Assembly: GCF_024345855.1 (NCBI RefSeq)
Contig: NZ_JAGQBX010000009.1
Coordinates: 1-63,158 of the forward strand
DNA length: 63,158 bases
Direction: 5' to 3'
DNA from: Synechococcus sp. GreenBA-s
GTDB lineage: Bacteria; Cyanobacteriota; Cyanobacteriia; PCC-6307; Cyanobiaceae
Notes under the pieces: generated by a model
The model's database searches: none
Seen by the model: only the letters and a program-made list of their open reading frames with translations
Told to the model about the DNA's origin: nothing
Made by a program: the position numbers and the translations under genes
In this document: piece by piece, positions 9,686-22,426 of the stretch
Position numbering within the stretch: position 1 is the stretch's first letter
Layout of the letters: every line of letters begins with the position of its first letter

Positions 9686-9773
9686 GCCGGCCCATGGCGC
9701 CGGCCCCGCGGGCTGCATAGCGTCATCGCAGGCCTTCGGCCCCAGACGCTCCACGCCCCGCGTGGATCCGGCG

Positions 9774-10292
9774 ATGACAGCAAGCCGTGTCGAGAACTCC
9801 GGCCCGCAGGCCGGCACCAGGGACCGCCCCCCTGAGCGGGCTCCGGAGAGCTCCCCGGAGTGTCCCGTCGCCCGTCGCCGCGTCTGGCTGGGCGCCCTGC
9901 GGCATCTGGCCCTGGCGGATGGCCACCTCAGCCCCCTGGAGGTGGAGCTGCTGCGGCACTGGAGCCAGCTGCTGGCGGTGGGCCAGGAGCTCGTGGCCCC
10001 GCTCGCGAGTGACTGCGGCGAGGAGCCCGCGCCGAACCATCGGCTGCTGGATCCGCTGCGCCGTTGGCTGGAGGCGATCGAGCCCCGGGATGCGGCGGTG
10101 GCGCGGATGCTGGTGCGGCTGATCCCCGCCCAGTGCCCGTTCGAGCGGGATCTGGTGCTGTTCGGCCGCAAGCTGGCCCACATCGCGCCGATGTGCAAGA
10201 TCAACCCCGTCTACGACCAGCTGATGGCCCTGCGCTTCCGCTGCCTCTGCGTTCTGGAGGATGAGGTGCTGCCCAGGCGCGAGGGTGCCTGA
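9774..10292 (+). CDS. Mo-dependent nitrogenase C-terminus family protein
   Basis: About 172 residues. The C-terminal half (QCPFERDLVLFGRKLAHIAP, then MCKINPVYDQLMALRF) is the signature of the cyanobacterial family named after the Mo-dependent nitrogenase C-terminus. These proteins are widespread in cyanobacteria that do not fix nitrogen, so the name should not be read as function. The middle (LRHLALADGHLSPLEVELLR) resembles the TerB/tellurite-like EF-hand-type helices. Starts at ATG 9774 or GTG 9762 are both possible; the first 40 residues are low-complexity. No nitrogenase genes are nearby. Confidence 0.8.
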   Translation: MTASRVENSGPQAGTRDRPPERAPESSPECPVARRRVWLGALRHLALADGHLSPLEVELLRHWSQLLAVGQELVAPLASDCGEEPAPNHRLLDPLRRWLEAIEPRDAAVARMLVRLIPAQCPFERDLVLFGRKLAHIAPMCKINPVYDQLMALRFRCLCVLEDEVLPRREGA

Positions 10293-12945: not shown

Positions 12946-13989
12946 TCATTGGCGCCCCTTGAGCACCTGGCCGAAGGCGCTGTCCGTGATCACCGCCGGG
13001 GTTGTGGCCGTGTCGACGGTGAAGCTGCGGGTCTCCAGCTGGCTGGTGCCATCCGGATAGGTGAAGGTCACCTGGCCCTCCAGGGTGAGCGTGCTGCCGC
13101 TGCGGCCGCTCTCCCGCAGCTCGGTGACGCTGACGCGCTCGAACTGGTTGAAGAAGGTGGGATCGAACTGGTCGGCGGCGGCTCCGGCGAAGAAGCCACG
13201 GGCGGCGTCGTAGTTCTTGCTGGAGAGGGCGCCGTAGAGCTCCTGCACCCGGGAGATGGCCTGATTCAGGTCAGCGGTGTCGCTGCTGGCCGCCTCTTCC
13301 GTGGTGGGCGGGCTGGGCTCGGGTTCCGGCAGGGTCGGGGTCGCCGGCGGTGTCACCGGCTGGGCTACGGGCACGGGCGGGGCCTCGCTGGTGCCGAGCT
13401 GGGGTTGGCGGCGGCCGGCCATCTGCAGGAACACCAGCAGGCCCAGCAGCCCCACCAGCAGCCCGCCACACAGGAAGGAGAGCACCACTACCAGGGAGCG
13501 GCTGCCGCCGCCGCCGGCGCCGCTGCGGTTCGCCGCCAGCAGGGCCAGGGCCTGCTCCGAGGTGGGCGGCCGCGGATCGTCGAGCGGCACCGGCATCGCC
13601 ACCAGACCGGCTGGCTCAGGCACGGGGGCCGGCACCGGTGCGGCGGCGACAGCCGCGGAGGCCCCCGCCGTCCGCGTGGCGGGCAGGCCCAGCAGCCCCT
13701 CGACCACCGCCTGCATCCGCTGGCAGATGGCCGGGGTGAACACCTCCTGCAGCTCCTGCATCAGCCGCGTCAGCAGCCGCGGATCCGTCAGGGGGTCAGC
13801 CTGGCTCGCCGCGCTGTGGAAGGCGGGGCAGAACACCAGGTAGCGCAGGGCCGGCAGCAGGCCGGCCTGCTCGGCCCCGCCCAGATCGCCCACCAGCGCC
13901 TGCAGCCGCCGCCCCTCCACGGGCAGGCCGCGCTGGCGGTCCTGGATCACCTGGGTGCGCAGGGCCGCGCCGAGCTGGTAGTCGTTCAT
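12946..13989 (-). CDS. Single-pass membrane protein of the phosphosignalling cluster
   Basis: 347 residues. The N-terminal about 110 residues are soluble and helical (MNDYQLGAALRTQVIQDRQR), then comes a Pro/Ala-rich stretch, one strong membrane helix (SLVVVLSFLCGGLLVGLLGL, about 195-225), a Pro/Glu/Thr-rich linker and a C-terminal NTF2-like domain (about 255-345, with LNQAISRVQELYGALSSKNY and LEGQVTFTYPDG). I do not recognise a named family. The N-terminal opening resembles the ends of some cyanobacterial kinases. The start overlaps the PP2C gene stop (ATGA), so it is likely translated with it and may be an anchored substrate or sensor. Confidence 0.8.
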   Translation of the reverse strand: MNDYQLGAALRTQVIQDRQRGLPVEGRRLQALVGDLGGAEQAGLLPALRYLVFCPAFHSAASQADPLTDPRLLTRLMQELQEVFTPAICQRMQAVVEGLLGLPATRTAGASAAVAAAPVPAPVPEPAGLVAMPVPLDDPRPPTSEQALALLAANRSGAGGGGSRSLVVVLSFLCGGLLVGLLGLLVFLQMAGRRQPQLGTSEAPPVPVAQPVTPPATPTLPEPEPSPPTTEEAASSDTADLNQAISRVQELYGALSSKNYDAARGFFAGAAADQFDPTFFNQFERVSVTELRESGRSGSTLTLEGQVTFTYPDGTSQLETRSFTVDTATTPAVITDSAFGQVLKGRQ

Positions 13990-15515
13990 GGCGGTGGGGC
14001 CGTGGGCCGGCTGGAGCCGGTGGGGCCGGCCTGGGCGGGCAATGGCCCCATCCTCCTGTCCGCCGGTCCGGCCGGCCAGGTTGCGGCCAGGCCCGCCTCC
14101 AGCTCCGGGCAGGCCCCCAGGGCGCGGAGCGGCCCGGGGGCCTCCTGCGGCCCCCGGGCCAGAAAGGCCGTGCCGAGCAGGGCCCCGAGCGGATCGGTGG
14201 CGGCGTTGCGCTGGAGCTGGTGAGCCTGGAGCTGGCCCGTGGCCAGCCCGGTGATTTGGCTCTGGCGTTGCCTGAGGCTGGCGCGGATGCTGGCGGGGCT
14301 GGCGCAGAGCTGGGCGATGCTGCGCCGCAGCTGGGCCTGGAGCTCCAGGGGCAGCGGGGCCGCGGCGGGACCGGCAGGGGGAGGCGTCCCCTCCGTCGGT
14401 GCCGCGGCCACGGGAGGCCCTGGGCCTGGGCTCCTGGAGTTCGGGAGCAGCCTCGTCAGGGCCAGCCCCAGGGCCGCCGTGGCCCCCAGGGCCAGGAGCA
14501 GCCACGCATGCCGCCCGCGCTGCTGCCCGGTTTGGGGTGGCTTCGGCTCGGCCGGCCCATGGGCGTCCGGCTCCAGCGGGCCCGGCGTCCGCTCCGGGGT
14601 CCGCTCCGGCGGCGGCGCCCCCAGCTGGGCGATGGCCACGCTCACGTCGTCGCCGCTGCCCTCGCGGCTGATCTGATCCAGGGCGCTGGCCAGCAGCTCG
14701 GGCTCGTCGTCGGGCAGGGCGGCCAGGTGGGCGGCGAGGGTCAGGAAGTCGGCGTCGGTGGAGCAGGACTTGCGGATGCCATCGCTGCTCAGCAGGAGGG
14801 AAAAGCGCTCCCCCTCGCGGCGGGGGTAGAGGGCGCTGCGGGGGGCGAACAGGCGGGCCGCCTGCCGCTGGCAGAGGCTGCAGGTGGCCTCCCCGCCCGC
14901 CGCCTGGGCCGGTTCCTCGCTGAGCAGGCTGGCGCCGCCGCCCTCCGCCTCGACCCGCACCAGATCCCAGTCCCCCAGGCCGGTGTGCCCCCACCAGTGC
15001 GGCCCGATCACCACCAGCCCCAGGGTGGTGCCGTAGCTGAGGGGGGAGAAGCCCTCCGCGCCGGCCTCCGGGGCGGCGGCCGCGGCGGCTGGGCTGGCGG
15101 GATCCGGACGTCCTGGATCCGATCCGCCCGGGTTGCCTCCTTCCGGATCCCGCTCCCAGTCGGCAGCGATGGCGTCCAGCCAGAGGCGGTGGATGGCCTC
15201 CGGCAGTTCGTGGGTCAGCCACCGGCGCCAGGGCTCGAGGCCGGTGTCCGCTGCCGTCGCCTGCGCCCCCAGGGCCCGCGCCACCTCCGTCACCGCCAGC
15301 TCGCAGGCCAGGCGGCTGCCCCGCTCGCTGCGCCGGTAGCGGGCGCCGCCGTGGCCGTCGGCCACCGCCAGTACCAGCACGGGCTGGCCGGCGGCGTCGC
15401 GGCAGCGGTGGCTGAGGGAGAAGTCCTGGCAGGGTCGACCCTGGCGCCGGTGGGCCGCGCCGATGCGGCTGCAGTGCAGCGCCGCGGCGGCAGCTGGGCC
15501 GGCCCCGGAGCTCAC
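13986..15515 (-). CDS. PP2C-type serine/threonine phosphatase with C-terminal membrane helix
   Basis: About 509 residues. PP2C motifs are present: RQGRPCQDFSLSHR (about 23-36), VLAVADGHGGARYRRSERGS (metal-binding DGHG), SYGTTLGLVVIG, GLGDWDLVRV, LLLSSDGIRKSC and ISREGSGDDVSVAIA. After the catalytic domain come a Pro-rich linker, a membrane helix (WLLLALGATAALGLALTRLL) and a helical tail. It would remove phosphate groups added by the kinase encoded just upstream. The start is a GTG at 15515 overlapping the vWA gene stop (GTGA); a second GTG at 15518 is an alternative. An unusual Cys-x2-Cys sits in TCSLCQRQ. Confidence 0.88.
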   Translation of the reverse strand: MSSGAGPAAAAALHCSRIGAAHRRQGRPCQDFSLSHRCRDAAGQPVLVLAVADGHGGARYRRSERGSRLACELAVTEVARALGAQATAADTGLEPWRRWLTHELPEAIHRLWLDAIAADWERDPEGGNPGGSDPGRPDPASPAAAAAAPEAGAEGFSPLSYGTTLGLVVIGPHWWGHTGLGDWDLVRVEAEGGGASLLSEEPAQAAGGEATCSLCQRQAARLFAPRSALYPRREGERFSLLLSSDGIRKSCSTDADFLTLAAHLAALPDDEPELLASALDQISREGSGDDVSVAIAQLGAPPPERTPERTPGPLEPDAHGPAEPKPPQTGQQRGRHAWLLLALGATAALGLALTRLLPNSRSPGPGPPVAAAPTEGTPPPAGPAAAPLPLELQAQLRRSIAQLCASPASIRASLRQRQSQITGLATGQLQAHQLQRNAATDPLGALLGTAFLARGPQEAPGPLRALGACPELEAGLAATWPAGPADRRMGPLPAQAGPTGSSRPTAPPP

Positions 15516-16306
15516 CACACCAGGGGCCCCACGTCGTCGGTGGGGTCCATCACGGTGGGGGGCAGATCCGGCAGCGGGATGTTGCCCTCCGCGGCGGCCC
15601 CCGCCACCCGGCTGGCCGGCATCGAGGCGGCCCCCACCACGGCGGTGGAGGCCCACTGGATGTACTGGGCCAGGGCCGTGGCGTTGCTGGCCTGCAGCGG
15701 CCGCCGCGGCGACTTGCCCGGCCGGTGCAGCGGCGCCTGGCCGCTGGCCCCCGGCACCTCGCCCACCGGCAGGCCGCCGCCGCCCCGGGCGCCAGGATCG
15801 CTGCCGATGAACTGCTGCAGCACCTCCAGATCGGCGTCATGGCCCATGGCGATCGCCAGGCGCACGGCCTTCTGGGCCCAGGGCTGGCGCAGCAGCGACT
15901 GCAGCCCTGCCTCAAAGTCGTCGGTGGGCTGGCCATCGGAGATCAGCACCAGCACCGGCGGCAGGGCCCGCTCTTCCATCGGCGGCGAGCGCAGCTCCGC
16001 CGCCACCAGCTCCAGGGCCTCGCCCATGGCGGTCACGCCGCCGGCCTGCAGGTCCACCCACTGCAGCTGCTCCACCGGCGTGGGCTGGGCGATGTGCCAG
16101 CTGGCCCGATCCGCGAAGCTCACGGCCCGCACCAGCACCCGCGCTTCGGGGTTCTGGCGGGCCACCTCGGCCATGCCTGGCAGCGACTGGCGGATCGCCT
16201 GGTTGAGGGCCTGCATCTTGCCCTGGGCCGCCATCGAGCCCGAGCAGTCGCAGAGGTAAAGGAAGTGCAGCGGCCGGTTGGCCAGGCGGACGTTCGGGAA
16301 GGGCAT
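15512..16306 (-). CDS. vWA-domain protein (TerY-like)
   Basis: 264 residues, with a von Willebrand A domain over about residues 13-165. The MIDAS motif is complete: DCSGS (Asp20, Ser22, Ser24), a Thr in AGGVTAMGEALEL and an Asp in LISDGQPTDDFE, so it should bind a metal ion and a partner. The start LANRPLHFLYLCDCSGSM resembles TerY proteins. The C-terminal about 90 residues are Gly/Pro-rich and variable. It lies between the kinase and PP2C genes, the partner set of the TerY-P triad. A gap of 92 bp before it may hold its own promoter. Confidence 0.88.
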   Translation of the reverse strand: MPFPNVRLANRPLHFLYLCDCSGSMAAQGKMQALNQAIRQSLPGMAEVARQNPEARVLVRAVSFADRASWHIAQPTPVEQLQWVDLQAGGVTAMGEALELVAAELRSPPMEERALPPVLVLISDGQPTDDFEAGLQSLLRQPWAQKAVRLAIAMGHDADLEVLQQFIGSDPGARGGGGLPVGEVPGASGQAPLHRPGKSPRRPLQASNATALAQYIQWASTAVVGAASMPASRVAGAAAEGNIPLPDLPPTVMDPTDDVGPLVW

Positions 16307-16398
16307 CGGGCGTCAGGGGCGCGCGGCGCGCTCAGGGAAACGGCCTTGCGCCCTTTAGCGTCGCACCCCTGGGCGTGGCCCGGCTCAGCGCTCCCCCT

Positions 16399-17745
16399 TC
16401 AGGGGCGCCCCGGGTGGAGCACGGCGATCGGGCCGGCCGGGGTGGTGAGCGCCCGCACCGGCGCCAGGTTGCAGGTGCGGCCCGGCTCCAGCGGCACCCG
16501 TTCGCCGCTGGCCAGCTCGGCGATCCAGCGTTCGCCCGTGAGGTTGCGCAGGCCCAGCACCCCCGCGTCGCTGGGGTGGGCCTCCACCTGGGCCAGGGGC
16601 CGGCGCAGGTCCTCCTCCAGCAGCGGATCGAAGTGGTGGGGGTGCAGCGCGTTCTCCGGCGCCGCGATCACCTGGCTATGGGGCAGCTGCAGCCGCAGGG
16701 GAGCGGGCAGGGCAGTGCCGCAGTTCCAGCAGCTGGCCCCGCTGGCGCCCGGCTCCGGGAAGGTCTCCTGGCCGCAGCTGGGGCAGAGCTGGCGCTGGTC
16801 GAGGGCGGCGGCCAGCGCGCGGCGCCACTGGCCGGTGAGGGCCCGCTGGCCCGGCTCTCTGAGCCCGCGGCAGAAGCTCTGCTCGAACAGGGCCTTGAGC
16901 CCCTCGGGATAGATGGGCCAGGTGAGCAGGGCCGCGGCGTGCTCGATCGGATCGGGCCGGTTGCGCGCATCGGCCGGATCGAAGATGAACACCGGGTCCT
17001 CGCCGTAGAGCCTGCGGCGGGCCGGCTCATCCAGGCAGCGGATCGCCAGCTCCAGCTGGCCCCGCAGCGGATCGTGGCGGGTGAGCAGCCGGAACAGCAG
17101 CACCGCCAGGGAGAAGAGATCGCTGTTGGCTCCAGGCCTGGCCTGGCCCAGCAGCACCTCCGGCGCCATGAACCCCGGCGTGCCCAGCACGCTGCCCGGG
17201 TCCTGGCCGTCCACATCCACGTTGTCGTTGTCGCAGATCAGGATGCGGCCGCTGCTGGGCTCGAGGAACAGGTTGCCCAGGGAGATGTCCTTGTAACAGA
17301 GGCCCCGCAGGTGCAGGGCGTGGAAGGCATCCGCCAGGAAGAAGCCGGCCCGCAGCACGTTGCGCAGGCTGATCGCCAGGTGACCGCCCACGTGCTCGTG
17401 GGCCCCCACGTAGCCCGCGGGCCGCAGGTCCATCAGGTAGCCGAAGCCCGGCTCGCGGCTGCGGATCAGCCCCGCGCTCTCCGGTGTGGGGCGCAGCAGG
17501 GCGATCGGCCAGAGGAAGGCGTCGTTGGGGGCGGTGGCGCGGATGCTCTCGGCCAGGCGCAGCGGCAGACGCCGGTCCCGGGAGATGCAGGCCGGCAGAT
17601 ACCACTTCAGTGCCAGCCGCTCACCGGCCAGCTCCACCTCATACACCTGGCCCTGGGTGCCGCCCCCCAGGCCGCGCAGCACCTGCAGTGGCGCGCTGAG
17701 ACTCCCGCAGCGGAGGCTGGTGCCCGGCGGCAGGATCCAGGTCAC
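16399..17745 (-). CDS. Atypical protein kinase with C-terminal zinc ribbon and FHA-like end
   Basis: 448 residues. The kinase domain spans about 15-310: glycine loop GLGGGTQGQVY (25-35), Lys47 in ALKWYL, catalytic loop YKDISLGN (Asp153, Asn158), DND at 172-174 in place of DFG, and APE at 194-196. A four-Cys zinc ribbon follows (Cys321, 324, 339, 342), and the last about 70 residues (GVLGLRNLTGERWIAELASG) resemble a degenerate FHA domain. The start is GTG at 17745. It is like kinases paired with vWA and PP2C proteins in bacterial stress clusters. The missing Gly of DFG leaves activity open. Confidence 0.82.
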   Translation of the reverse strand: MTWILPPGTSLRCGSLSAPLQVLRGLGGGTQGQVYEVELAGERLALKWYLPACISRDRRLPLRLAESIRATAPNDAFLWPIALLRPTPESAGLIRSREPGFGYLMDLRPAGYVGAHEHVGGHLAISLRNVLRAGFFLADAFHALHLRGLCYKDISLGNLFLEPSSGRILICDNDNVDVDGQDPGSVLGTPGFMAPEVLLGQARPGANSDLFSLAVLLFRLLTRHDPLRGQLELAIRCLDEPARRRLYGEDPVFIFDPADARNRPDPIEHAAALLTWPIYPEGLKALFEQSFCRGLREPGQRALTGQWRRALAAALDQRQLCPSCGQETFPEPGASGASCWNCGTALPAPLRLQLPHSQVIAAPENALHPHHFDPLLEEDLRRPLAQVEAHPSDAGVLGLRNLTGERWIAELASGERVPLEPGRTCNLAPVRALTTPAGPIAVLHPGRP

Positions 17746-17776
17746 GGTGGCGGCGGGCCGTGGGGTGCGGACCGGG

Positions 17777-18541
17777 TCAGGCCTCCAGACTCTGGCCGAT
17801 GGCCTTGCGGATGCCGTTGCGGTGCGAGAGCGCCGTGAGCCGGTTGGCGAAGGCGCGGCGGCGGGCGGTGCCGTCGTGCAGCACCACCACCAGGGTGTGC
17901 TGCTTGCGCGACCCCAGCAGCACCGCCGCCACCAGGGCGCCGATCTGCAGGGGCCAGAACAGCAGCGGGAAGGGCAGCAGCAGCAGCCCCCCCAGGCACA
18001 CCAGCACCCACCAGCTGAACAGGTGGGGATGCAGCGGCTGGCTGCGCACCGCGGCCGAGCGGATCAGGGGGATGGGGATCCGCTCGCCGGCGACCTCCAG
18101 GCTGGTGGCGGGGCTCGTCGGAGGCGCGGGGCTGACGGTTTGGCGGCTTGGCGGGGCTGCCGGCCTGGCCTGGGAAGGCTGGGCGGGAGCGGCCGCAGCC
18201 GGGGCCGGCTCCAGCTGGAACAGCATCACCGGCCCGCTGCGGCCCAGGCGGATCGCATCGCCATCTGCCAGGCGATGACTGGCGCCGACGCGCTCGCCGT
18301 TCACGTAGGTGCCGTTGGCACTGCCCAGGTCCTCCACCAGCCAGCGGCCGCTGGCGGCCTCCAGGCGCACGACGGCGTGGTGGCGGGAGAGGCCCGCCTC
18401 CTGGGGCAGGCAGAGGCCGTTGCTGGCGTCGCGGCCGATGCTCAGCGGCCGCTGGGGGTGGAGCCGCACCGCCTTGGTGGGATCGTCCTGCTTGCTCAGG
18501 CGGGCGCCGGCCGGGGGGACGCCGCTGGGGGACCGCGCCAT
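17777..18541 (-). CDS. FHA-domain membrane protein
   Basis: 254 residues. An FHA domain at about 25-105 shows the phosphothreonine-binding pattern: LSIGRDASNGL, LSRHHAVV and DLGSANGTYVNGERV. A Pro/Ala-rich linker leads to a hairpin of two membrane helices (about 172-212) and a basic cytoplasmic tail. It would recruit phosphorylated proteins to the membrane. The ATG at 18541 shares one base with the stop of the small membrane protein upstream, and the kinase gene follows 31 bp downstream. Confidence 0.9.
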   Translation of the reverse strand: MARSPSGVPPAGARLSKQDDPTKAVRLHPQRPLSIGRDASNGLCLPQEAGLSRHHAVVRLEAASGRWLVEDLGSANGTYVNGERVGASHRLADGDAIRLGRSGPVMLFQLEPAPAAAAPAQPSQARPAAPPSRQTVSPAPPTSPATSLEVAGERIPIPLIRSAAVRSQPLHPHLFSWWVLVCLGGLLLLPFPLLFWPLQIGALVAAVLLGSRKQHTLVVVLHDGTARRRAFANRLTALSHRNGIRKAIGQSLEA

Positions 18542-18813
18542 CAGTTCCGCCCCCGGCGGCGCCACCACAGGCGCCAGTCGTCGCGCCGATCGCCCCACCA
18601 GCCGGCATCGCCCTCCCGATACGGGAGCACCCGGCCCGGGAACAGCAGGGCCCGGCTGGCCAGGGCCAGGGCCACCAGCACCATCGCCAGCAGCACCCAG
18701 CCGGGGATCGCGCCGGGCCAGGTCCAGGCGAAGCTCGCCCGCACGGCGTACAGGCCGATCGTCAGCGCCAGCCAGAGGCGGAAGGGCTCCCAGGGGTCCC
18801 GCTGGCGCTGCAC
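18541..18813 (-). CDS. Small two-helix membrane protein heading the signalling cluster
   Basis: 90 residues with a GTG start. Two hydrophobic segments (RLWLALTIGLYAVRASFAW and WVLLAMVLVALALASRALLF) are followed by a charged, Trp/Arg-rich tail (DDWRLWWRRRGRN). I do not recognise the family. Its overlap with the FHA gene start supports it as a real co-translated gene. It begins 30 bp from the divergent FHA-PBP gene, so both probably share a promoter region. Confidence 0.7.
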   Translation of the reverse strand: MQRQRDPWEPFRLWLALTIGLYAVRASFAWTWPGAIPGWVLLAMVLVALALASRALLFPGRVLPYREGDAGWWGDRRDDWRLWWRRRGRN

Positions 18814-18842
18814 CGGTTCACCGCCCTCGCTCGCCGTAGCCT

Positions 18843-21203
18843 ATGGCGAGGCCGCTCCCGAACGCCCTGCCCGTGCCGCAGACCCCAGGGGATCCGCCTC
18901 AGCCCGGCCCGGCCCAGCGGCCCCAGCTTGCCCAGCCCCAGCTTGCGCAGGCCAAGCCTGCGCCGCTCCGCCCCAGCCGCCGCGCACTCTGGCTGGAGCT
19001 GCTGCGGGCCCTCGGCCAGGGCGATCTGGCGGCGCGCCCCGGCGCCGTGCGGGCGGCCTGGCAGCAGCTGCTGGAGCGCCGGGCCACGGTGGAGCTGTGG
19101 ATGGGCGAGCAGCGCCTGGCGGCCCGGCCCCTGGAGCCCGGCCAGCGCCTGCGCCTCGGCCGCGATCCGGCCTGTGAACTCCACGCCCCGGCCCAGAACC
19201 TCAGCCGGGTGCACGCGATCCTTGAGCAGGACCGCCCGACCGACCGCGATTTCCGCCTCGAGGACTTCAACTCCGCCAACGGCCTGTTCCACCGCGACCG
19301 CCGCATCCGCGCCATCGGCCTGCGCCACGGCGATGTGATCCAGCTGGGCTCGCCCCTCAAGGCCGAGGCGGCCCAGTTGCGCTACAGCCATCCCCGCAGC
19401 GGCCTGGAGCAGGCCCTGCACCTGGCCGGGGTGGGGGCGCTGCTGGGCTCGGCTCTGCTGGTGGGCGGCCTGCTGGTGGCGGCCTCGATCGGCGGCGGCT
19501 CCAGGATCCGCAGCATCTCCGGCCCGGTGAAGATCGTGGCGGCCAGCGGCCAGCAGATCGACGCCAAGGAGGGCTCCGCCACGGCCCTGCCCAGTCTCGA
19601 CGCTTATCCCCTGGCGCTGCGCCAGGCCCTGATCGCCTCGGAGGAGGCGCGCTTCGGCTGGAACAGCGGCCTCGACCTGTTCGGCACCCTGCGCTCCCTG
19701 GTGCAGCGCAGCGGCGGCGGCAGCGGCCTCACCCAGCAGGTCGCCCGCCTCTATTACCCCGAAGTCGGCAACGACTACAGCCTCACGCGCAAGCTGCGGG
19801 AGCTGTGGGTGGCGCTGCAGCTGGAGGTGGGCTTCAGCAAGAACCGCATCCTCAAGATGTACCTGGATCGGGCCTATCTGGGCCTGGGTACGGAGGGCTT
19901 CGAGCAGGCGGCGCGGCTCTACTTCCGCAAGTCGGCGACGCAGCTGGATGCGGCCGAGGCGGCGTTCCTGGTGGGGCTGCTGCCCAACCCCAACGGCTAC
20001 AGCCCCTGCAACCGCAAGGATCCCGGCGCCGGCCGCGAGCGGCGCAACCTCGTGCTCAAGCTGATGCACGAACAGGGCTTCCTGGGCGACCAGCAGCTGG
20101 TGGATGCCCAGCGCCGGCCCCTGAACATCGACCCCTCCGCCTGCCGCGACTCCACCTTCTCCAGCTACCCCTTCTTCAGCGACTACGTGGTGGGGGAGCT
20201 GGAGGGCACCCGCTTCGGCCTCGACCTCAGCGGCCAGGACGCCGGCGGCAACTACCTGGTGGTGAGCACGATCGATCCGAAGCTGCAGGCCCTGGCCCAG
20301 CAGCAGCTGCAGCGCTTTCTGGAGGGGCCGGCGGCCCGGCTCGGCCTCACCCAGGGCGCCCTGATCAGCCTCGATTACCAGAGCGGCGACATCCTGGCCT
20401 ACGTGGGCGGGGGGGATTACTCCCGCTCGAGCTTTGATCGGGTTCAGGCCCTGCGCCAGCCGGGGTCGGCCTTCAAGCTGTTCACCTTCCTGGCGGCCCT
20501 GGCCGCCGGCGTGCAGCCGGAGGAGACGATCTCCTGCGCGCCCCTGGCCTATGTGGCGGGCTGCCGCCAGGGCGGCGGCGCGGTCAGCGTGGCCGATGGC
20601 TTCGCCCTCTCGGAAAACGTGGTGGCGCTGCGGCTGGCGGAGCGGGCCGGCCTGCGCCAGGTGATCGCCGAAGCCCGCCGCCTCGGCATCACCACCCCCC
20701 TCGACCAGGACTTCAACACGGTGCTGGGCGGCCGCGAGACCCTGCTCTACGAGATGGCGCGGGCCTATGCGGTGGTGGCCAACGGCGGCCGCTCGGTGCC
20801 GATGCATGGCGTCAGCAAGATCTACGACCTGGGCATCTGCCAGTCGATCTACAGCCTCGACACCTGCCCCCAGCGCGGCGTGACGGTGCCGGTGGGGGAG
20901 GCGACGCGCCAGCTGGTGCCGGCGGAGCAGGCCGCCGTGATGGATGGTCTGCTGGCCGGTGTGGTGCAGCGCGGCACCGGCAAGGCCGCCGCCGTGGTGG
21001 CCGATGCCCGCGGCAAGACCGGCACCACCAACAACGGCGTGGATGTGGTGTTCATCGGCTACTCGCCGGCCCTGCGGATGCTCACCGCCATCTGGATGGG
21101 CAACGACGACAACCGCCCGGCCGAGGCCGCCAGCGGGGCGGTGGTGGCTGAGCTCTGGGGGCGCTACATGGCGGCCGTGGCCCGCGCCCGCGCCGCCGCC
21201 TGA
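18843..21203 (+). CDS. FHA-domain class A penicillin-binding protein
   Basis: 786 residues making and crosslinking peptidoglycan. Domains in order: a cytoplasmic Pro/Gln-rich leader and helical part, an FHA domain (about 95-180; LRLGRDPACEL, LSRVHAIL, NSANGLF), a membrane helix (about 194-216), a GT51 glycosyltransferase (about 240-410) and a transpeptidase (about 500-770). GT51 motifs diverge: SEEARFGWNSGLD keeps the Glu pair but has Asn for the usual His, and GGGSGLTQQ replaces GGSTITQQ. Transpeptidase motifs are intact: SAFK (Ser542), SEN (590-592) and KTG (725-727). The FHA domain suggests control by the adjacent kinase/PP2C pair. Its 3' end overlaps the convergent rhomboid-like gene by 40 bp. 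Confidence 0.93.
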   Translation: MARPLPNALPVPQTPGDPPQPGPAQRPQLAQPQLAQAKPAPLRPSRRALWLELLRALGQGDLAARPGAVRAAWQQLLERRATVELWMGEQRLAARPLEPGQRLRLGRDPACELHAPAQNLSRVHAILEQDRPTDRDFRLEDFNSANGLFHRDRRIRAIGLRHGDVIQLGSPLKAEAAQLRYSHPRSGLEQALHLAGVGALLGSALLVGGLLVAASIGGGSRIRSISGPVKIVAASGQQIDAKEGSATALPSLDAYPLALRQALIASEEARFGWNSGLDLFGTLRSLVQRSGGGSGLTQQVARLYYPEVGNDYSLTRKLRELWVALQLEVGFSKNRILKMYLDRAYLGLGTEGFEQAARLYFRKSATQLDAAEAAFLVGLLPNPNGYSPCNRKDPGAGRERRNLVLKLMHEQGFLGDQQLVDAQRRPLNIDPSACRDSTFSSYPFFSDYVVGELEGTRFGLDLSGQDAGGNYLVVSTIDPKLQALAQQQLQRFLEGPAARLGLTQGALISLDYQSGDILAYVGGGDYSRSSFDRVQALRQPGSAFKLFTFLAALAAGVQPEETISCAPLAYVAGCRQGGGAVSVADGFALSENVVALRLAERAGLRQVIAEARRLGITTPLDQDFNTVLGGRETLLYEMARAYAVVANGGRSVPMHGVSKIYDLGICQSIYSLDTCPQRGVTVPVGEATRQLVPAEQAAVMDGLLAGVVQRGTGKAAAVVADARGKTGTTNNGVDVVFIGYSPALRMLTAIWMGNDDNRPAEAASGAVVAELWGRYMAAVARARAAA

Positions 21204-22426
21204 AGCAGCTCGCCGGCTCGGCTCACCAGGGCCCAGCCGATTCCCAGCACCAGGCCCCACCACCACTGGCTGCTGAGCAGTCGATCGAGCGGCCGGCTGT
21301 CGTCCTGGGCGCTGCGGCGCGGCAGCACCCAGGCCAGCTGCAGGGCGCCGTAGAGCACCAGCAGCACCCAGGCCGGAATGCCGAATCCCAGGCGGCCCAG
21401 GGGGTATTCCAGGGAGCGCCAGTGCAGCAGGCTGGCGGCCGTGCCCAGGCCGACCAGGGCGCTGATCGCCCCGGAGGCCCCGTCCCAGCGCCCCTCGGGG
21501 GTGCGGCGCTGGGCCACCAGCAGGGCCAGCGCCACGGTGGCCAGGCTGGTGAGGGCGTAGCGCAGCACCACATCGGCCAGGGGCAGCGGCGAGGGCCCCA
21601 GCAGCACCAGCAGCATCAGCAGGTTCACGGCCGCCTCGCGCTGGTCGTGGTGGATCCAGGGGGCCGTGAGCCAGCGCCAGGCCCCGTGGGGATTGGTGGC
21701 ATCGGCCTGCTCCAGGGGCCACTGGCGCCGGGCCGCCTTGAGGGGCCCCAGGGCCAGGGCCTGCAGCAGAGCGAGCAGGACGGCCAGCACCACGCCCCCG
21801 CTCCAGCCCCAGCCATCGAACAGGCGCCGGTCGAGTTCCAGCGCCGCCCACCACCACACCAGGGCCAGGGCGAAGGCCAGGGCCAGGCCCGGCCCCAGCG
21901 GCCGCAGCTGCTGGGCGAGGGCGCCCAGGCCTGCGGGCCCGGTGAGGGCGGCCGGGCGTGGTGCCCCCACCAGACCACCGCGCGGCCCGGCCACCGCCAG
22001 GGAATCGTCGACAGGTGGCTCCACCACCGCCAGCTCCAGACCCGTGGCTGCAGCCGCTGTTCCGGTGGGATCGTTCGGCCTGCTCGGACCTGAGACAGGA
22101 AGCGCCACGCCCTGGGCCCCCTGGGCGCTGCCCGTCGGCGCCGCTTCGGGTGCCGGCAGGCCGACCGGCAGGCCGCTGGCCGCCTCCAGCAGCTCCAGCA
22201 GCTCCGCCAGCACCCGCGGCGCATAGGTGCGCTCCAGTTGCTGCCGGAGGCTTTCCAGGGCCGAGCGCTGGGCCCCTCCCCGCTGCCGCAACACCTGGCG
22301 CAGCAGGGGCTGGGCCGCCAGATCCCGCACCGGCCCGCTCAGCCACACCTCGGCCCCGAGCCCATCAATCAGCCGGTTCGCCAGGGCCGGGGGCAACTCC
22401 AGGAGCCCAGGCCAAAGCCTGGGCAA
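21164..22426 (-). CDS. Rhomboid-like membrane protein
   Basis: About 420 residues. A soluble N-terminal half of about 180 residues is followed by six or more hydrophobic segments. WRWLTAPWIHHDQREAAVNL resembles the rhomboid entry motif, and WDGASGAISALVGLG contains the GxSG active-site serine motif. I cannot find the second catalytic histidine in the last helices, so it may be an inactive rhomboid. The start is uncertain: the frame opens at a TTG (22426) six bases after the atpC stop, suggesting readout from the ATP synthase operon. Its 3' end overlaps the FHA-PBP gene on the other strand. Confidence 0.68.
   Translation of the reverse strand: MPRLWPGLLELPPALANRLIDGLGAEVWLSGPVRDLAAQPLLRQVLRQRGGAQRSALESLRQQLERTYAPRVLAELLELLEAASGLPVGLPAPEAAPTGSAQGAQGVALPVSGPSRPNDPTGTAAAATGLELAVVEPPVDDSLAVAGPRGGLVGAPRPAALTGPAGLGALAQQLRPLGPGLALAFALALVWWWAALELDRRLFDGWGWSGGVVLAVLLALLQALALGPLKAARRQWPLEQADATNPHGAWRWLTAPWIHHDQREAAVNLLMLLVLLGPSPLPLADVVLRYALTSLATVALALLVAQRRTPEGRWDGASGAISALVGLGTAASLLHWRSLEYPLGRLGFGIPAWVLLVLYGALQLAWVLPRRSAQDDSRPLDRLLSSQWWWGLVLGIGWALVSRAGELLQAAARARATAAM

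Follow-up and report, generated by a model that had tools for sequence, protein, structure and literature searches.

TerY-P triads occur in many bacteria, but for the most part what feeds them, what they associate with and what they act on has only been hypothesized. As defined in the part of PMC11090510 devoted to them (citing Anantharaman et al., 2012), they comprise three linked genes, for a TerY-like vWA protein with a metal ion-dependent adhesion site (MIDAS), a PP2C phosphatase and a Ser/Thr kinase with a C-terminal zinc ribbon. We analyzed a cluster of this kind in the freshwater cyanobacterium Synechococcus sp. GreenBA-s, located in a stretch of 63,158 nucleotides of contig NZ_JAGQBX010000009.1 (hereafter the window). 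In this cluster a predicted triad lies next to two FHA proteins, one of them a class A penicillin-binding protein (PBP), and to two membrane proteins that have an N-terminal helical domain in common, here called the adaptor domain.

The PpkA-PppA-Fha switch of type VI secretion follows a kinase, PP2C and FHA logic, whereas the cluster has vWA and adaptor proteins and none of its eight genes matches a secretion family in Pfam. PpkA, PppA and Fha1 are mentioned in the relevant sections of PMC6213207, which also present PknB/PASTA control in Gram-positives and mycobacteria, where kinase, PP2C and FHA proteins act on wall synthesis, as we propose here. The cluster differs from that system in its zinc-ribbon kinase, in its vWA and adaptor proteins and in having FHA fused to the PBP itself, and no PASTA repeats were matched in its proteins in Pfam. 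The TerY-P antiphage system (Gao et al., 2020, as outlined in passages of PMC7699616 and PMC11090510) has the same three enzyme classes, but its kinase is described with an OB-fold, while the cluster has a zinc ribbon and a core-genome setting. The triad of PMC11090510 itself has the same linked MIDAS vWA, PP2C and zinc-ribbon kinase; the set analyzed here contains no tellurite or restriction genes, and its triad is joined to FHA proteins, a class A PBP and adaptor membrane proteins.

We read the cluster as a TerY-P triad that has adaptor-domain and FHA proteins as its outputs and would here be wired to peptidoglycan synthesis, and assign to this reading a probability of roughly 0.5. Judging from its sequence the trio is a triad of TerY-P type, because each defining part given in the definition quoted above was looked for and found: a MIDAS vWA, a PP2C, a kinase with C-terminal zinc ribbon, and linkage of the three genes. 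The Pfam match of the kinase covers residues 137–230 only and its motifs are atypical (YKD instead of HRD, DND instead of DFG), with all catalytic residues present; K47, D153, N158, and D172 are unchanged in all 41 aligned relatives, and so are the four zinc-ribbon cysteines (C321, C324, C339, and C342). Zinc-ribbon models match this C-terminus at 0.0036 and weaker, below the Pfam cut-off. An OB-fold was not found on the kinase, with the cysteines occupying its place and no OB-fold family among the Pfam matches. The MIDAS residues of the vWA protein (DxSxS, T, D) are unchanged in 40 of 40 aligned relatives, its match to the PADLOC TerY model being weak, and the metal-site residues of the PP2C in 38 of 38. 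Matches of the kinase in PADLOC and NCBIfam were set aside since they cover the generic kinase core only. In one relative (L037) a different kinase and a vWA are fused in one protein, which supports the association of these two domain types.

Relatives in Cyanobium, Vulcanococcus and Synechococcus also conserve the set, the nearest named one being Vulcanococcus limneticus (96% identity in the kinase). In a sample of 195 genomes of the class, a long relative of the kinase with at least 41% identity was present in eight, five of them within the family (host included) and three outside, and two more (G008 and G029) gave shorter matches of 34–36%. Among 400 Cyanobiaceae genomes the kinase (E ≤ 1e-60) was detected in 72 and the PBP subtype (E ≤ 1e-170) in 66, all of them within the 72. 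Both genes lie on one contig in 65 of these 66, with 0.9–2.3 kb between the matches, and in the remaining genome (G535) the kinase contig and the PBP contig each end inside the FHA gene. Three other genomes (G245, G336, and G452) have a PBP beside the triad at 57–64% identity, below the E value threshold, and in G416 the PBP on the kinase contig is cut by the contig end; in all, the FHA-PBP accompanies the kinase in 70 of the 72. The subtype was not found without the kinase in any of the 400 genomes at E ≤ 1e-170, a threshold that missed three cluster PBPs and could therefore also miss a divergent PBP in a kinase-less genome. At the level of loci, the PBP, the small membrane protein and the FHA gene adjoin the kinase in 28 of 30 Cyanobiaceae kinase loci, with two Prochlorococcus exceptions. 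Of these 30 loci, some of them on short contigs, 14 include the NTF2-like gene and 24 the rhomboid-like one. Most long-flanked copies sit between groES/atpD/atpC and PSRP-3/HAD/pepP (PSRP-3 by Pfam), but the six-gene set is also found whole without the atpD-atpC and PSRP-3 flanks in L033, L066, L124, and L125, with about 8–9 kb seen on each side. The trio of Prochlorococcus MIT 0701 (G064, L032) has in its neighborhood an ABC transporter with two FHA domains, a protein with the adaptor domain, a COP23 protein and one that combines trypsin and TPR domains. Similar company is seen beside the set in G166 (L033:12145-15785), where a further adaptor protein occurs together with genes that by eye resemble trypsin and COP23.

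A first-pass annotation of the window is supported in part. Its genes (PP2C, vWA, kinase, FHA proteins, class A PBP) are borne out by coordinates and Pfam, seven of seven lying at or near the positions it gave; the identity it proposed with the TerY-P triad agrees with domains, active residues and linkage; and the conservation across Cyanobium and Synechococcus and the tie between PBP and triad, both of which it proposed to check, were encountered in the relatives. It also knew of no described cyanobacterial system with all these parts. Our literature searches agree: those on FHA, PBPs and cyanobacteria retrieved no described FHA-PBP system among the papers listed and those on TerY-P none dealing by title with cyanobacterial walls, the 2012 TerY-P paper (Anantharaman et al.), which may note the adaptor domain, lying outside the search.

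FHA-bearing class A PBPs as such are ordinary in cyanobacteria, because PBP-like matches at E ≤ 1e-100 occur in 162 of the 195 class genomes, one or two in each, and most of the matches listed span the FHA domain (by reading, all but seven among the matches listed start at or before residue 104, where this domain begins). The frequency of FHA-PBPs without a triad means that the design alone implies no wiring to it. The host itself has a second FHA-PBP of the widespread cyanobacterial type (G000 contig C67:60793-61722, L040), with the same order of FHA, transglycosylase and transpeptidase; its genome contains three transglycosylase proteins and, at E ≤ 0.001, three FHA domains, those of the FHA membrane protein, the cluster PBP and this paralogue. 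However, the cluster PBP is about 41% identical to this paralogue and falls in its own clade. In a tree of 54 rows the 35 window-type proteins form one fully supported group on a long stem of 1.47 changes per site, at which the tree program warns of long branches meeting, and we regard the cluster PBP as a separate subtype of single origin.

The subtype has both transglycosylase and transpeptidase domains with catalytic motifs, as expected of a class A PBP, with three conserved residues altered at the transglycosylase site. Twenty positions are nearly fixed yet different between 35 window-type and 18 ordinary FHA-PBPs, and the transglycosylase motifs contain two of these (position 274, H to N; position 342, N to D). 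Position 295 is G in 36 of 36 window-type rows that have a residue there, against 15 T and four S in the ordinary type. Four proteins with open frames not cleanly extendable (L063, L064, L146, and L148) are left out of the tree and, together with the FHA-less L042, out of the list of fixed differences, while the motif counts (FHA, SxxK, position 295, etc.) still include these five; L147 is a placeholder region without a PBP. Aligned with the Aquifex-type PBP1A fragment of structures 2oqo and 3nb6, N274, G295, and D342 fall in the EDxxFxxHxG, GGSTxTQQ, and YLN motifs, which are ordinary in the widespread FHA-PBPs. Changes at the matching residues of Escherichia coli PBP1b impair activity. Nearly all PBP rows retain both the first catalytic Glu and that of RKxxE, and nearly all window-type PBPs retain the binding residues of the FHA domain and the transpeptidase motifs SxxK, SxN, and KTG. 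Of 33 relatives of the FHA membrane protein, 29 keep the FHA Arg and 28 the Ser.

The coordinates of the set are given in Table 1. Outward from the PBP, the minus strand reads small membrane protein, FHA protein, kinase, vWA, PP2C and NTF2-like protein; the PBP is divergent from these six genes, and the rhomboid-like gene is convergent with it. Spacing on the minus strand is operon-like, with overlaps of 4, 7, and 58 bp and gaps of 92 and 31 bp. Membrane stretches were judged by eye, except in the predicted model of the NTF2-like protein, and the PP2C shows in this way a hydrophobic stretch after the phosphatase domain that probably spans the membrane. The 30 bp that the first-pass annotation put between the divergent genes hold as 29 bp with the annotated PBP start, but the true start may lie downstream, because many relatives align only from residues 30–53 of the PBP, leaving a wider gap. 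Its end of the set at 21203 has to be moved, since the rhomboid-like gene is also part of the set, and it overlooked the adaptor domain, the zinc ribbon of the kinase and the altered transglycosylase site, as well as this rhomboid-like member. About 2.7 kb from the cluster, at 9762–10289 of the window, there is a Mo-nitro_C gene with a weak TerB match (E 0.00067, below cut-off).

Table 1. Genes of the cluster, with window coordinates, strand and supporting features.
Feature	Coordinates	Strand	Evidence
Adaptor membrane protein with NTF2-like end	12946..13989	-	adaptor ~residues 1-105, one membrane helix, NTF2-like ~231-347
PP2C phosphatase, GTG start	13986..15518	-	Pfam PP2C_2 3.6e-23; metal-site residues
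TerY-like vWA protein	15512..16306	-	Pfam VWA 1.6e-7; PADLOC TerY 6.8e-4; MIDAS residues
Ser/Thr-type kinase with C-terminal zinc ribbon	16399..17745	-	Pfam Pkinase 1.3e-13; catalytic residues and four Cys
FHA membrane protein, C-terminal hydrophobic hairpin (by eye)	17777..18598	-	Pfam FHA 2.9e-19
Small membrane protein, 90 amino acids, conserved	18541..18813	-	no family match
Class A PBP with N-terminal FHA	18843..21203	+	Transgly 1.6e-42, Transpeptidase 2.2e-22, FHA 1.7e-12
Adaptor domain fused to rhomboid-like membrane domain	21164..22426	-	Pfam Rhomboid 5.9e-7

The adaptor domain opens both the NTF2-like and the rhomboid-like protein. Aligned with hhalign, the two window profiles give a match that is weak alone (probability 2.3, E 0.02), but homology was accepted because the profile of either one finds the same third proteins (in L128, L033, L059, and L032) and an iterated profile joins both. 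Over all compared loci the iterated profile finds 110 open frames, a figure that includes duplicate copies of one region counted as more than one locus. The AlphaFold2 model has seven helices with a mean pLDDT (predicted local distance difference test) of 91, and a fold search against the PDB with it returned nothing at E ≤ 0.001 (best VIA Z 4.7), which is no proof of a new fold. Among 28 members, no two are matched by a common Pfam or NCBIfam family, and the best single match has E 0.031. A link to the effector-associated domains (EADs), as presented in part of PMC7159879, was considered, but no family match in Pfam or NCBIfam supports it, as far as these libraries include EAD models.

Outside the Cyanobiaceae, 50 kinase loci were compared, of which 39 have vWA and PP2C and 38 the adaptor domain. 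In 37 of these 38 the nearest adaptor copy has the orientation of the kinase, and in 33 it lies within 500 bp, with a median gap of 33 bp, these gaps being underestimates because they were measured between stop-to-stop frames. In the 195 cyanobacteria the domain is present in 13 genomes, that is seven of the eight with the kinase and six of the other 187, and in 199 genomes from the class of an Anaerolineae genome (L075) it is present in 13, which include all eight with the kinase. Within 20 triad genomes (about 100 Mb), 17 of them chosen because their locus had the domain, 31 of 33 copies lie on the kinase contig within 12.2 kb and two on another contig (G584 C126 and G590 C21); as to the three chosen without it, G589 has none, G590 has the copy on the other contig and G591 a weak copy near the kinase. 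The profile used (A2) was partly built from tested genomes, namely five of the seven cyanobacterial positives (G117, G134, G107, G111, and G166) and at least G573 and G583 of the other sample, so that the independent part of these tests is the rarity of the domain elsewhere together with the remaining genomes. The divergent Prochlorococcus adaptor (L032) escapes A2 but is picked up by a local profile at 4e-7. The adaptor also occurs in eleven sampled genomes that lack a strong triad kinase, of which six are cyanobacteria (G014, G020, G068, G092, G104, and G172) and five belong to the other sample (G612, G649, G688, G701, and G719). When the flanks of all but G612 were compared, the domain appeared beside vWA and PP2C in G092 and G719, beside a kinase-like frame in G068, near kinase- and PP2C-like frames in G688, and alone within the flank seen in G020, G104, G649, and G701; the local profile gave no confirmation of it in G014, G172, and G688. 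As far as profile searches indicate, the adaptor domain is a regular partner of this kinase type across phyla because it is rare elsewhere, though detection in the genomes that contributed to the profile was expected.

The domain is usually near the N-terminus and the remaining parts of the protein vary, ten scanned proteins showing ankyrin, beta-helix, SH3, WD40, LRR, FGE-sulfatase, and TPR parts, to which MORN, RDD, and phosphonate-binding-like parts can be added. We give even odds to the idea that a fourth component belongs to TerY-P triads with this type of kinase, namely a helical adaptor through which interchangeable outputs (WD40, LRR, ankyrin, FGE-sulfatase, SH3, beta-helix, NTF2-like, pseudo-rhomboid) would be connected to a core of kinase, phosphatase and vWA, and that the Cyanobiaceae version of this modular switch has in addition gained control of a dedicated FHA-PBP whose transglycosylase site is re-tuned. 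Some triad loci hold several such proteins. L079, L082, and L084 each have two tandem kinases of this family and two adaptor proteins, the latter ending in LRR (by Pfam for one in L079, by eye for the others). In L113 (Competibacteraceae) there are four adaptor proteins, one FGE-sulfatase (Pfam), two similar to it and one ankyrin-like (by eye), in what looks like an expandable output set.

The outputs in the window were also considered individually. The C-terminus of the single-pass protein has no match in Pfam; its predicted structure supports the NTF2-like fold already suspected in the first-pass annotation (Foldseek best E 0.014, probability 1.00; VIA Z 11.5), and this domain is probably periplasmic. 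A link of this fold to PBPs through the N-terminal extension of Enterococcus PBP5 (Z 11.5) was rejected, as it was tied with many unrelated NTF2-like proteins. Rhomboid proteases are recognized by a catalytic GxSG Ser and a His in the sixth transmembrane helix. In the rhomboid-like protein the GxSG Ser is kept in 17 of 27 and no His is found at the usual place of that helix, and it is probably a pseudo-protease, with no protease activity predicted.

In the mechanism that we propose, vWA, PP2C and zinc-ribbon kinase would make up a reversible Ser/Thr-phosphorylation switch at the inner membrane, with the vWA holding the complex together. In each output of the cluster a docking domain, which is either FHA or the adaptor, precedes membrane or periplasmic parts; these outputs would reach the triad in two ways, either through the adaptor domain (NTF2-like protein and pseudo-rhomboid) or through phosphothreonine-binding FHA (membrane protein and PBP). 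With the kinase on, phosphothreonine sites would appear on membrane partners in the cluster; it is plausible that the FHA domains read phosphorylation by the cluster kinase, and the dedicated FHA-PBP would then be recruited or activated, so that peptidoglycan synthesis would start at, or shift to, the marked site. The PP2C, probably membrane-tethered, would erase the marks and reset the switch. Gene identity, catalytic residues, co-inheritance and the common domain with its linkage to the triad are direct observations.

Several observations weigh against the wiring to peptidoglycan synthesis. Two Prochlorococcus genomes, MIT 0701 (G064, L032) and AG-412-I05 (G296, L126), have the trio without the PBP, the second locus covering only a 4.9-kb contig, and G008 and G029, with divergent triad-like loci, gave no adaptor match. 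The conservation statistics are inflated by shared ancestry and so are not independent tests. Outside the Cyanobiaceae, FHA was found in two of the 50 triad loci (L080 and L099, with a profile made from cyanobacterial FHA domains) and a PBP match in the flank of another two (L107 and L108). The FHA Arg is gone in four and the Ser in five of the 33 FHA membrane proteins. Moreover, most sampled cyanobacteria carry FHA-class A PBPs without the triad, possibly reading other kinases, and the host genome has two Pfam kinase-family matches, so that a second kinase could feed the FHA-PBP. These last two points, together with the synteny of the flanking genes, also favor an explanation that we consider unlikely, in which PBP and triad are neighbors by inherited gene order only and the FHA-PBP answers other kinases, as its widespread paralogue presumably does. 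Against it, the PBP subtype tracks the triad closely, remains its neighbor where the surrounding genes differ, and did not turn up in G064, where the trio occurs on its own.

A defense role seems quite improbable to us. The triad would in that case sense phage or envelope attack, with the PBP and the membrane adaptors reinforcing or sacrificing the envelope, and it is true that the consulted parts of PMC7699616 report TerY-P as anti-phage against T7-like phages and those of PMC11090510 tie it to restriction systems. The kinase does match PADLOC defense-kinase models, and the vWA weakly TerY, but the former matches are those to the generic core; the antiphage variant is described with an OB-fold kinase, not the zinc ribbon seen here; none of the eight genes has a nuclease or restriction family match in Pfam; and the kinase is present in 22 of 25 genomes of the same genus, with the set lying in most relatives between the core genes groES/atpD/atpC and PSRP-3/pepP. 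It is equally doubtful that the triad controls a membrane or transport process via adaptor and FHA proteins, with a PBP that is mainly regulatory or cross-linking and not a polymerase. Such a role would fit the three fixed substitutions at the transglycosylase site (H to N, T/S to G, and N to D), the NTF2-like and pseudo-rhomboid outputs and the FHA-ABC transporter near the Prochlorococcus trio (L032), but nearly all rows retain both catalytic Glu residues and the transpeptidase motifs. We stay with a TerY-P triad that would act on wall synthesis; how its parts touch each other, where they are phosphorylated, which way control runs and what signal is sensed are all inferred.

The adaptor domain is the newest part, the cluster otherwise varying a known TerY-P theme, and through its linkage it provides a handle on the targets of these triads that serves several phyla simultaneously. 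In the Cyanobiaceae version the output is concrete and open to testing, namely a PBP that carries an FHA domain itself, and, if our reading is true, this version would represent a new cyanobacterial route to the control of the cell wall by reversible phosphorylation.

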